Origin: Pirellulales bacterium
GTDB lineage: Bacteria > Planctomycetota > Planctomycetia > Pirellulales > Thermoguttaceae
DNA length: 32,052 nt
Direction: 5' to 3'
Assembly: GCA_016928165.1 (NCBI GenBank)
Contig: JAFGLH010000004.1
Location: 1-32,052, forward strand
This document shows, one piece after another, positions 9,191-32,052 of the stretch. The translations under genes and the position numbers were made by a program. The notes under the pieces are model-generated. The model ran no database searches, was not told the DNA's origin, and saw nothing but the letters and a program-made list of their open reading frames with translations. Every line of letters begins with the position of its first letter. Positions within the stretch are counted from its first letter, which is position 1.

Positions 9191-9736
9191 GTGGCTCCAT
9201 CCAATCCATCCGACAACGACCAGCGGACTCTGCAATATCTGACCTTGCTCGGGCGTCACGAGCGGCGATTGCGGGGATATATTCTCGCGCTGGTGCCGAA
9301 CTGGGCCGACGCCGACGACATCGCGCAAGAGGTGAGAATCCGTCTCTGGGAACAGTTCGACGAATACGACCCGGCCAAGGATTTTGGCGCCTGGGCGCGG
9401 ACCATCGCCTACTACCAAGTGCTTACCCATCGCGAAAAGCAGTCTCGCCGCCAAAGCAAGATCAGCAGGCGGTGCGTCGAGCTGGTGGCCGAGGAGGCGG
9501 CCGCGATTTCCGCGGAACTGGACGCCGCCGAGCAAGCGCTGAAGGATTGCTTCGAGAAACTGCCGCAAGTGAAGCGCGATCTGTTGTTGCGCTACTATTC
9601 GGGCCGGTGGACAACCCGGGAAATCGCCGCCGAGTCGGGGCGGTCTTTCGACGCCACACGACAAGCCATCCTGCGCACCCGCTCGACGCTCCGAGATTGC
9701 GTCGAGGACGCCTTGCATAGGGAGGCAAGCCGATGA
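9191..9736 (+). CDS. ECF sigma-70 factor (Rhodopirellula/Verrucomicrobium-type)
   Basis: A 181-aa ECF sigma factor starting at GTG, with GGGGGAAGG about 7 nt upstream. Region 2 (about 15-85) contains DADDIAQEVRIRLWEQFDEYDP and ARTIAYYQVL, which bind core polymerase and the -10 element. Region 4 (about 125-175) contains LPQVKRDLLLRYYSGRWTTREIAAESGRSFDATRQ, which reads the -35. The stop overlaps the ATG of the FecR-type gene by 4 bp, the usual planctomycete arrangement in which the membrane protein encoded downstream controls the sigma factor. It probably transcribes the surface-protein genes that follow, but no repeated promoter motif was recognised to prove this. Confidence 0.9.
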   Translation: MAPSNPSDNDQRTLQYLTLLGRHERRLRGYILALVPNWADADDIAQEVRIRLWEQFDEYDPAKDFGAWARTIAYYQVLTHREKQSRRQSKISRRCVELVAEEAAAISAELDAAEQALKDCFEKLPQVKRDLLLRYYSGRWTTREIAAESGRSFDATRQAILRTRSTLRDCVEDALHREASR

Positions 9737-11565
9737 GCCGCAGACTATCGGACAACGCCGATTCGATCCGCCGCGAGGTTTATCGCCTGGGCGACGCGCT
9801 GCTGAGCGGGGCAATCACGGCGGAAGAAACCGAGCGGCTGAACGAAATGGTGGCCGAGGACACGGAGGCCAGGCGCTATTACGTCCGTTTTATGTACGAT
9901 TCGGCCGCTCTGAGCGAGTGGGGAAGAGACGCCTATGGCGGCGACTTCGTCGAACGCCCGCGCGACTCCGCAACTGAACGACCCTCCGATCCGTCGCCCC
10001 TCCCACCTCTCCCTTCTCCTCTCTCCGCTTCATTCATCGGCGGCCCGGTCTTTTCCTACATGGTCGCCTCGGTGGTCGTGTGTTTGATGCTGCTGGGGGC
10101 CTGGGCATACAAAATCAACTACGACCGCAACATCTTTATTGCCGATAGCCGCAACTTAACGACCTCCGGTCCGTCGGATCAATCGGAGTTGGTCTTCGTC
10201 GGCCGCGTCACCGGCATGAAAGATTGCCGCTGGGCCGATCCGGAATCGCCAACGATCGTCGGCGCCTCGGTCCCGCTGGATCGCAGCTACTCATTATCTT
10301 CGGGCCTAATGGAAATTGCTTACAACAGCGGCGCGAAAGTCATACTCGAAGGTCCCTGCTCGTACAAAGTCGAGTCCTCCGCCGGCGGCTTTTTAATGAA
10401 AGGAAAGCTGACAGCCAATATCAAAACTCAAAGTTCAAAGCCCAAAGCTCAAAGCTTGGACTCCCCTCCGCTCTCTACTCTCTACTCTCCACTATTCTCC
10501 ATCCGCACGCCGACGGCGATCGTCACCGACCTGGGAACCGAGTTCGGCGTCGAGGTGAACGAGAACGGCGATACCACCTCTCATGTATTCCAGGGTTCGG
10601 TGAAAGTCGAAATACTCCCCTCTCCCGCAAGCGGGAGAGGGGCCGGGGGTGAGGGCGGCATGGTGCAACTTGCCGCCGGCGAGTCGGCGCTGGTAAAAAA
10701 AACCGCGGCCGAAACTGTGCGTTTCACGCGCCCCGCAACACCGCCTACGTTCGTCCGCCGAATATACGAGCCGCCCAAGCTGATTGATCTGCTGGACATA
10801 GTCGCCGGCGGCGACGGAACAGGCCGCCGGCGCGAACGAGGCATCGATCCGACCACCGGAAAGCAGGACACCTATTTCCTGCCGACGCAATACCGATTCG
10901 AGAACCGCTATCATCTCGTCCAGTGGAACCGCCTGATCGACGGCGTGTGCATTCCCGACGGGCGGACCGAGCCGGTCGTGCTCGACTCGGCCGGCCACAC
11001 GTTCGCTGAGTTCGGCGAGCTTACCGAAGGATTAACCATCGGGCCGATCTGGGCACGCGAGGCCGACGTCAGCACGATCAATCAAAAAAGAACTCGGCAC
11101 GCATACATCTACACGATGGGCCGCGGCGATGAGTTCATGCCCGAGGATCGCGGATTGCTCGGCTTCCATACGAACAAGGGCATAACTTTCGATCTTCGAG
11201 CGATGCGCGAGGCGCACAAGGGAATACGCCCGTCGATATTCAAAGCGGTAATCGGACTGGCGGACGCATCGGTCGCCTACGCCGATCGTTTCGGCAAGGC
11301 CGACGTATGGATTTTCGTCGACGGTCGCCTTGCGTGGAAACACAGAGTGCACCAAGGCGAAAAGCCGGTCGCCGCCGAAGTCGAGTTAGGTCCCGACGCG
11401 CAATTTCTCACAATTCTGGGCACCAACGCCGGCGACGGCAGCTCCGGCGACTGGCTCGTACTCGGCGATCCCGTGCTGGAACTGGCCGAAACCGAAGCGG
11501 CGGTCTCCACAGACAACGGCAAGCAGGACGCTGAAAAGACGAACCATACGAAAGCGGAACACTAA
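9733..11565 (+). CDS. FecR-domain membrane protein with C-terminal NPCBM-like domain (putative anti-sigma/sigma regulator)
   Basis: A 610-aa protein. The N-terminal 70 residues form a short helical cytoplasmic segment, and a membrane helix covers about 106-127. The FecR-type beta domain follows (about 180-330: AYNSGAKVILEGPCSYKV, then IRTPTAIVTDLGTEFGVEV, then AAGESALV). The C-terminal part (about 440-595) resembles NPCBM carbohydrate-binding modules: RGLLGFHTNKGITFDL, FVDGRLAWKH and LVLGDPVLEL. Three low-complexity stretches interrupt it: Pro/Ser-rich 88-99 before the membrane helix, 232-255 inside the FecR fold, and 295-308, which is a translated copy of a dispersed DNA repeat. It overlaps the ECF sigma gene by 4 bp and is inferred to sequester or activate that sigma factor in response to an outside, possibly glycan, signal. 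Confidence 0.88.
   Translation: MSRRLSDNADSIRREVYRLGDALLSGAITAEETERLNEMVAEDTEARRYYVRFMYDSAALSEWGRDAYGGDFVERPRDSATERPSDPSPLPPLPSPLSASFIGGPVFSYMVASVVVCLMLLGAWAYKINYDRNIFIADSRNLTTSGPSDQSELVFVGRVTGMKDCRWADPESPTIVGASVPLDRSYSLSSGLMEIAYNSGAKVILEGPCSYKVESSAGGFLMKGKLTANIKTQSSKPKAQSLDSPPLSTLYSPLFSIRTPTAIVTDLGTEFGVEVNENGDTTSHVFQGSVKVEILPSPASGRGAGGEGGMVQLAAGESALVKKTAAETVRFTRPATPPTFVRRIYEPPKLIDLLDIVAGGDGTGRRRERGIDPTTGKQDTYFLPTQYRFENRYHLVQWNRLIDGVCIPDGRTEPVVLDSAGHTFAEFGELTEGLTIGPIWAREADVSTINQKRTRHAYIYTMGRGDEFMPEDRGLLGFHTNKGITFDLRAMREAHKGIRPSIFKAVIGLADASVAYADRFGKADVWIFVDGRLAWKHRVHQGEKPVAAEVELGPDAQFLTILGTNAGDGSSGDWLVLGDPVLELAETEAAVSTDNGKQDAEKTNHTKAEH
10427..10500 (+). repeat. YYCAAAG heptamer array plus pyrimidine tract inside the FecR gene
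   Basis: Four tandem 7-mers (CTCAAAG, TTCAAAG, CCCAAAG, CTCAAAG, 10427-10454) are followed by a CT-rich tract to 10500 with repeated CTCTCTACT. They are translated in frame as a Lys/Gln/Ser then Pro/Leu/Ser linker between the GKLTANI and FSIRTPTA strands of the FecR domain. Confidence 0.8.
10615..10656 (+). repeat. CCCCTCTCCCGC...GCGGGAGAGGGG repeat inserted in frame in the FecR gene
   Basis: A 42-bp unit with a CCCCTCTCCCGC/GCGGGAGAGGGG hairpin and a GC-rich tail. It is 41/42 identical to the reverse complement of 32011-32052 at the window end. Its length is a multiple of three, so it adds 14 codons (Leu-Pro-Ser-Pro-Ala-Ser-Gly... Gly-Glu-Gly) without a frameshift. Confidence 0.9.
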
Positions 11566-11639
11566 AAAACGCGATTTATTGCCGCATCGGCAAGAAAGGA
11601 GGAGCTATCAAAACGTTCGGCGGCTTTTCAATCGAATTT

Positions 11640-11653
11640 TTTCCGTACGGAAA
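11640..11653. promoter_or_regulatory. 14-bp palindrome in the leader of the LamG PEP-CTERM gene
   Basis: TTTCCGTACGGAAA is a perfect palindrome 44 bp before the ATG at 11697. It lies between an orphan ribosome-binding-like AAAGGAGG (about 11595-11602) and the real AAGGAG (11683-11688). It could be an operator or a small hairpin; no function is shown. Confidence 0.4.
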
Positions 11654-11696
11654 GAACTCCTTTTACTATTCATGTTTCCATCAAGGAGAACGAACG

Positions 11697-12584
11697 ATGT
11701 ATCTGAAGAAGCAGACTATTTGCACGGCGGGCCTGTGCGTGGCTTTGTTGTTGTCGTTTTGCGCGGCGGCAGTTCAAGCGGAGACGGTGGCCCACTGGCG
11801 GTTCGAGGATTCTCCCGGCTTCCTGGAGGACTCCGGTTCGAACAACATGGACCTGACCATTTACGACGGGGACAGCAATTCCGCCAACGATCCGACCCAG
11901 TATACGCTGCCGGAGACCGGCGCCGGGGCGTATTTTCCCAATCCGATCCCGCAAACCGGGGCGACAAACCTCGAAGGCGTCACCATCATTCACAACCACG
12001 ACGGGCTGACCGGCTTGGACAACGGCGCGCTTTCCTTTACGACCGGCTTCACCATCGAGGCCTTTTTCAATCGCGATACGCTGACCGACCACAGGACGGT
12101 CTACATGCAGGGTTATACCAGCGGCTCGACGGATAGAAACATTAACGTCGAGCTAAGAAAAGAAAAAAGGATCAGGTTGTCTTTGAGCAGCGACGGATCC
12201 GCCCTTACGACGGTCTACAGCGATTACAACGTCTACGACGACGACTACGACTACTTTTTGGCGGTGGCTTGCGACCTGAGCAATCATCAGGTGACCTTCT
12301 ACTTGAAGAATCTCACCGAGGATACCGCGCTATGGTCGCAGACCGTGGATCTCGGCGGCACCACGGCGTTTTCGCTGCACGATTCGTCGGCCAATTTTTA
12401 CATCGGCGCGTTTTTTGGCACGGCGAATTCGACCCTGAACGACGTGTTTGATGAAATTCGCATTTCCGACGTGGTGTTGCCGGAAAGCCAATTTCTGATC
12501 AACGTTCCCGAGCCGTCCACGCTGGCCCTGCTCGGTTGCGGTTTGATCGGACTGCTCGCATACGCTTGGAGGAAACGCAAGTAG
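11697..12584 (+). CDS. Secreted LamG-like PEP-CTERM protein
   Basis: A 295-aa protein. The signal peptide is residues 1-28 (KKQT, then a hydrophobic core ending AVQAE). A LamG/concanavalin-like beta-sandwich follows (about 30-262: VAHWRFEDSPG, TTGFTIEAFFNRDTL, FYLKNLTEDTALWSQ, NFYIGAFFG, FDEIRISDVVL). It ends in a PEP-CTERM sorting tail: VPEPSTLALLGCG, a hydrophobic helix, then WRKRK. AAGGAG at 11683-11688 supports the start. PEP-CTERM proteins are exported and processed by an exosortase, which is not in this window. The gene lies 131 nt after the FecR gene and is the first of three PEP-CTERM genes, so it is a likely member of the ECF/FecR regulon. The LamG domain suggests glycan or matrix binding, with no catalytic residues evident. 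Confidence 0.88.
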   Translation: MYLKKQTICTAGLCVALLLSFCAAAVQAETVAHWRFEDSPGFLEDSGSNNMDLTIYDGDSNSANDPTQYTLPETGAGAYFPNPIPQTGATNLEGVTIIHNHDGLTGLDNGALSFTTGFTIEAFFNRDTLTDHRTVYMQGYTSGSTDRNINVELRKEKRIRLSLSSDGSALTTVYSDYNVYDDDYDYFLAVACDLSNHQVTFYLKNLTEDTALWSQTVDLGGTTAFSLHDSSANFYIGAFFGTANSTLNDVFDEIRISDVVLPESQFLINVPEPSTLALLGCGLIGLLAYAWRKRK

Positions 12585-31954: not shown

Positions 31955-32010
31955 ATAGCGGAATACCAAGTCGCCGTTCAAAAACAACTTCGGTTTTTCA
32001 TGCGCCAACC

Positions 32011-32052
32011 GCCCTCACCCCCGACCCCTCTCCCGCTTGCGGGAGAGGGGAG
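32011..32052. repeat. CCCCTCTCCCGC...GCGGGAGAGGGG repeat at window end
   Basis: The reverse complement of this stretch is 41/42 identical to 10615-10656 inside the FecR gene. It may continue past the window. No gene is seen between 31842 and 32052. Confidence 0.9.

Follow-up and report, generated by a model that had tools for sequence, protein, structure and literature searches.

In-frame copies of a triplex-motif repeat in protein loops of a planctomycete genus

Results

The window, which is the whole stretch of DNA analysed here (32,052 nucleotides), is the entire contig C6, and position 32052 is the last base of that contig. It contains a gene for a FecR-like regulator, after which comes a PEP-CTERM/LamG gene, and two copies of a short repeat, one inside the FecR gene and one at the end of the window. 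The features are as follows.

9191–9736, forward strand: ECF-type sigma factor gene directly upstream of the FecR gene (Sigma70_r2, 7.3e-15)
9733–11565, forward strand: FecR-like transmembrane regulator with a C-terminal NPCBM domain (FecR 0.00042, below the Pfam cut-off; NPCBM 2.2e-06)
10423–10500, forward strand: second loop of the FecR gene, with low-complexity repeat words (KTQSSKPKAQSLDSPPLSTLYSPLFS); other words in paralogues
10615–10658, forward strand: in-gene copy of the intrastrand-triplex repeat (44 bp), translated as LPSPASGRGAGGEGG; 43/44 identical to the contig-end copy
10617–10626, forward strand: C-rich stem CCCCTCTCCC, 10/10 Watson-Crick pairs with 10633–10642
10627–10632, forward strand: first loop GCAAGC; the 6-nt form is that of the window's own species, mostly 3 nt in sister species
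10633–10642, forward strand: purine stem GGGAGAGGGG, partner of 10617–10626
10643–10645, forward strand: second loop CCG
10646–10655, forward strand: third strand GGGGTGAGGG, antiparallel triads G-GC, A-AT and T-AT possible at 10/10 positions
31968–32052, reverse strand: truncated MITE-like element enclosing the copy at 32009–32052, longer than the 42-bp unit
32009–32052, reverse strand: second copy of the triplex repeat, ending at the contig end

A cassette of ECF sigma factor, FecR/NPCBM protein and PEP-CTERM/LamG protein stands at 9191–12584 and likewise at L061–L100.

The first-pass annotation of this DNA had described a 42-bp unit at 10615–10656 (CTCCCCTCTCCCGCAAGCGGGAGAGGGGCCGGGGGTGAGGGC) as identical at 41 of 42 positions, in inverted orientation, to an intergenic copy at 32011–32052. 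Direct comparison with the reverse complement of the latter bears out this identity, the contig-end copy having a T at the C of the in-gene copy, but the repeat is about 44 bp long instead, with 43/44 positions identical once GG is added. The contig-end match is real, although that copy lies within a longer MITE-like element and is incomplete, because contig C6 stops at 32052; intact copies of the element carry imperfect terminal inverted repeats, TAAGCGGCCGTTCAA and TAAGTCGCCGTTCAA. The 21-bp palindromic core of the repeat occurs at two sites in the window, namely these two copies, against none expected from 100 shuffles. Position 10615 is a codon start of the open reading frame 9733–11565, which continues uninterrupted and translates 10615–10656 as LPSPASGRGAGGEG; the proposal that a dispersed repeat is read here as protein, with the frame kept, therefore stands.

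The genome to which the window belongs (G000) contains approximately 193 copies, counted with a 24-bp pattern, and its congeners G001 and G002 contain 34 and 55, counted with a gapped pattern differing from that of G000; all three genomes are fragmented drafts with breaks at the repeat. As many contigs of G000 break in or beside the repeat, its copy number and the number of in-gene copies given below are probably underestimates. Such breaks were seen at contigs C60, C70, C175, C204, C229 and C265 and at the window end. Allowing up to two mismatches, the palindromic core gave 186 forward and 188 reverse matches in G000, against none in the control. Of 392 genomes sampled from the phylum, 46 have at least one copy by the gapped pattern, and a 28-bp exact core was present in 65 stretches from named genomes of several phyla, 14 of them from a single Thermoguttaceae MAG (A05DMB26) and others from Cupriavidus, Crenobacter, Noviherbaspirillum, Thermomicrobiaceae and more. 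Copies in G000 form short head-to-tail rows. Of the 18 pairs of neighbours less than 200 bp apart, 16 have a spacing divisible by three. Long, regular head-to-tail arrays of the triplex motif, with steps of about 84, 155, 174 or 237 bp, were observed on contigs C1, C2, C8 and C9 of another genome, G143. Among 97 distinct copies of G000 taken for in-gene analysis, approximately 26, including the window-end copy, are surrounded by the MITE-like element with its imperfect terminal inverted repeats. MITE membership of the in-gene copies was considered and rejected, since these consist of the core only and the MITE ends are absent.

Within its 44 bp the unit has the order CCCCTCTCCC, GCAAGC, GGGAGAGGGG, CCG, GGGGTGAGGG, which would permit a class II intrastrand triplex with ten of ten triads possible in the window copy. 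Stems of 10 nt with loops of 6 and 3 and at most one mismatch are found in 83/97 own copies, and six of the 97 have no such fold at the settings used. The repeat falls within the broad definition of class II (purine motif) intrastrand triplexes, given in the sections of PMC4666352 drawn on here as a stem of 6–15 nt and loops of 1–6 nt with one mismatch allowed. The literal TM_ECO pattern (CCCTCNCCCN3-6GGGNGAGGGN3GGGNGAGGG, with 9-nt stems and a 3-nt second loop) matched none of the 97 own copies; it fits six sites elsewhere in the retrieved G000 DNA. Because its stems are 10 nt long and the literal pattern fits 0/97 copies, the unit is set apart from TM_ECO and, judged on its sequence, is a longer-stem relative of TM_ECO/PIT within the broad triplex class. 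The computed RNA hairpin energy of the unit is -27.8 kcal/mol (z -1.75).

The FecR family is unusually large in the genus, with at least 21–22 matches per genome: at least 22 in G000 and at least 21 in each of the two congeners, these being lower bounds as no more than 21 candidates were scored per genome. We aligned 21 own FecR sequences with 20 from the two congeners, which are sister species. The repeat is present at full length, in the same loop, frame and junction, in 8 of the 21 own paralogues and in shortened form in the same loop of L061, and the congener version fills this loop in 5 of the 20 sister sequences (L084, L086, L089, L093 and L095). Paralogues without the repeat have unrelated filler there, either GGGGATTC repeats (GIRGFGDSGIR) or a palindrome around GGCTTAGCCAGTG (GLASGT), or a short loop. 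As the same loop and frame are filled in own and sister paralogues, the insertion is not the recent event private to this gene that had been suggested. Nor does this gene show a clean insertion of 42 bp: between VKV and GES the loop has 22 residues in the window gene, compared with 11 in L071, the own paralogue with the shortest loop, and the paralogues and congener sequences compared gave no base-exact empty site for the window gene. The near identity to 32011–32052, which had been read as implying a recent or gene-converted insertion, is uninformative on that pair because dozens of copies are equally similar.

Across 28 pairs of own FecR copies, mean identity is 92% in the 42-bp unit (91% at third codon positions), and 81% and 67% in the aligned left 90 bp and in the right flank, respectively. 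As 92% is moderately above the 81% of the left flank, homogenisation of the copies is weakly supported. Paralogues that share the residues of the unit also share its DNA, as these pairs show, and the same residues written in unrelated codons were not encountered. A structure model of the FecR protein, of low confidence (mean pLDDT 64.2), places the insert between strands 289–294 and 310–314, with residues 297–308 below pLDDT 50, in agreement with the first-pass view that it extends a loop.

Changing repeat words are likewise carried by two further FecR loops in the own and congener alignment. These hypervariable stretches, at 10423–10500 and approximately 9976–10035, have the words KTQSSKPKAQ... 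and PLPPLPSPLS... in the window gene and others (IRNQKSPSSFILHPSSLFS, GMAGSPAIDGEEGFGIRDSG) in paralogues and congeners. A palindrome, GGTGCGTGCTGGCACGCACC, read as RVRAGTHH, occupies a fourth, downstream loop in L061, L063, L073, L075, L076 and L080, and in the retrieved G000 DNA this type of palindrome was met in 19 distinct contexts.

The remark that the repeat family can move into genes holds on a large scale. When codon usage was scored on both sides of the 97 copies, 31 were found in frame in 24 open frames, an assignment based on a home-made codon score together with homology for part of the cases; 16 copies were unclassed as the flank was too short, some of which were then placed by one flank. 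The 24 open frames correspond to 22 genes when the contig-broken truA and purL are counted once each, and seven of them are FecR. Frames +1, +2, -0, -1 and -2 of the unit are used 17, 9, 2, 2 and 1 times, and the sixth contains TGA. Hosts include pheT, aroB, folC, purL, truA, epmA, a FabH-like gene, addA and kdtA. Family cut-offs (NCBIfam, Pfam) were passed by folC, pheT, epmA, aroB, the FabH-like gene and an asparagine synthase-like gene; addA, kdtA, purL and a methyltransferase gave clear matches below full-length cut-offs, and truA was identified by Pfam. Bacterial genomes are mostly coding, and with about one third of the copies in genes the repeat is rarer there than chance would give, which is what loss of most such insertions would produce. 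Elsewhere, coding frames contained 15 of 30 examined copies in G001 and G002 (one clear host in G001 being a pyruvate dehydrogenase E1-like gene), 4 of 9 in G019 and G032, 4 of 10 in G203 and 0 of 8 in G143.

The aroB gene gives a view of such a loop in a core enzyme. Among 30 AroB loci from other genera, the loop has 11 residues in all 28 that were parsed (L328 and L331 were left out), and in G000, G001 and G002 it has 45, 34 and 45 residues, filled by three different, unrelated repeats. The AroB family model matches in one piece outside the genus and is split at positions 245–249 in the three congeners, G024 entering this comparison as a fragment only. In the structure model (mean pLDDT 86.8), residues 273–306 lie below 50 between the confident helices 260–269 and 311–328, and known dehydroquinate synthase structures align on each side of the insert, which is predicted to be probably disordered.

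Orthologues of 13 loops were sought in G001 and G002, the FabH-like gene of G002 (not alignable) and pheT of G001 (not recovered) being left out. The kdtA loop is empty in both congeners, where the gene is 114 bp shorter; for addA (93 bp shorter) and A2M, G001 has an empty site and G002 a filled loop; in G002 pheT is shorter by 54 bp, and the PQQ-like gene of G001 has hardly any filler. The loops of folC, purL and asnB are filled in both. At 6 of the 13 loops (truA, methyltransferase, epmA, aroB, FabH-like and PQQ-like) at least one congener has unrelated filler. Where both G000 and a congener carry the repeat (eight loops), the first loop of the unit is 6 nt long in 8/8 own copies and 3 nt in 10/11 congener copies, a 3-bp difference that is neutral to the frame. 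No target-site duplication or fixed end was visible by eye at the compared loops. A second palindromic element in G001, CGTTTAGC...GCCGCTAAACG, fills the epmA and methyltransferase loops (L194, L209, L201), both in frame.

Discussion

Many copies of the repeat stand in frame in protein genes, the filled state is derived against the empty sites, and the same loops are reused. We consider it probable that these are selfish triplex repeats, similar in behaviour to the RPE of Rickettsia, which survive in tolerant, reused protein loops. The unit would be a short non-autonomous repeat, foldable as a hairpin or an intrastrand triplex, which spreads through the genome and may have landed in protein genes many times. 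Insertion could occur anywhere, followed by loss of harmful cases, and the survivors would be in-frame copies in surface loops, translated into a Gly/Pro/Ser-rich segment that is probably disordered; such survival is likely because the unit can be read through in five of its six frames. Tolerant loops would then be reused, so that in sister species a loop may be empty or may hold either an unrelated repeat or that species' own version. Occupation of the FecR loop may predate the separation of the paralogues and of the three sampled species, or the loop may have been entered repeatedly, its content since then having been kept similar or replaced, and the effect on the host protein would be neutral or mildly costly. 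The copying step could be replication-linked template switching or illegitimate recombination at a stalled structure; with low certainty, we favour template switching at the hairpin or triplex over cut-and-paste transposition.

A single recent insertion into this one FecR gene, or gene conversion from 32011–32052, would account for the identity of the two window copies at 41 of 42 positions. However, the occupation of the same loop, frame and junction in 8/21 own and 5/20 sister paralogues refutes a unique event, and conversion from the contig end is opposed by the T/C difference and by the many other copies that match equally well or better, no linked markers of a conversion tract having been seen; we therefore regard this explanation as very improbable. 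It is hardly credible that the LPSPASGRGAGGEG loop is a conserved functional segment under selection: several paralogues do have these residues in common, but other paralogues and orthologues carry unrelated residues from other repeats instead, at other sites four further frames of this DNA are used, and third codon positions are as conserved as the rest.

An artefact of assembly or binning, in which repeat-driven misjoins would have put the unit inside genes, has to be weighed as the genomes are drafts with contigs ending inside the repeat, the window end included, yet the frames are unbroken, many genes have homology on both sides, three species were assembled separately and the same loop has different fillers, which makes this very unlikely too. 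Mobilisation of a REP-type element by a RAYT (Y1 tyrosine) transposase is unlikely as well, although the repeat is palindromic and G000 has two Y1_Tnp matches, given that the unit has a third purine strand that fits the triplex class and that no GTAG/CGTC tag (tags as described in the part of PMC3733652 used here) was seen by eye at its ends. The fetched surroundings of both Y1_Tnp genes (L179, L180) contain no repeat copy, and RAYT-associated REP membership was rejected on this ground.

Certain loops of core enzymes may be standing exchange sites in the genus, at which unrelated repeats are swapped or homogenised to the species' own version during divergence, a possibility that we put forward tentatively. 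If true, turnover of non-coding repeats would drive protein evolution at fixed places. The in-gene copies, and one enzyme loop with three different repeats in three congeners, make two questions tractable: the way in which such repeats are copied and the frequency with which non-coding repeats turn into protein. In genome annotation, LPSPASGRGAGGEG, SPLPLGEGPGVRA and similar peptides should be taken as footprints of a repeat and not as domains.

Both in-frame palindromic elements (RPE, intragenic REPs) and the triplex motif class are already known. In the open-access literature searched we found nothing on triplex-motif repeats in frame in planctomycete genes, nor on unrelated repeats alternating in one protein loop; the main text of PMC4666352 contains neither 'in-frame' nor 'planctomyc', and the sections of PMC3733652 drawn on here hold no description of one loop being reused by unrelated repeats for the GTAG/CGTC REPs. 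In the portions of the cited papers used for comparison, these REPs resemble the present repeat in that coding genes are hit, DNA repair genes included, for example in Opitutus terrae, and they differ in belonging to other families, which bear terminal tags and are associated with RAYTs (PMC3733652). Bacterial MITEs offer a further likeness, as a longer element bounded by imperfect terminal inverted repeats encloses approximately 26/97 copies, whereas the in-gene copies are the core alone.

The RPE are a parallel in behaviour, being short palindromic selfish repeats in frame within conserved protein genes, as described in the parts of PMC2229807 and PMC3733652 considered here; the present repeat, too, keeps the frame of the conserved genes in which it lies, and relatives have empty sites. 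An RPE-bearing Gmk is reported in the same part of PMC2229807 to be translated and active. RPE are 105–146 bp long (PMC2229807) compared with 44 bp here, a comparison made by description, and their hosts are intracellular, whereas here the repeat is a triplex motif and several unrelated repeat families share one loop in sister species. The best-known setting of in-frame palindromic insertions is the reduced genome of intracellular bacteria, and the host planctomycete group is probably free-living.

In its structure the repeat resembles TM_ECO/PIT (Holder et al. 2015, PMC4666352), which, in the text of that paper drawn on here, is known from 262 proteobacterial genomes and also has a C-rich arm, a purine arm and a third purine strand at high copy number. 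The second loop CCG of TM_ECO/PIT type B is found here, the mismatch variant CCCTCGCCC is common to both, and closely spaced inverted pairs occur in TM_ECO/PIT and here at the A2M locus. The stems differ in length (10 nt here, 9 nt in TM_ECO), and so does the location: TM_ECO/PIT is described there as always intergenic in E. coli MG1655, whereas genes hold about one third of the copies examined here. A kind of triplex repeat that is described as always intergenic in E. coli MG1655 is here part of the reading frame of many conserved genes in a planctomycete group.
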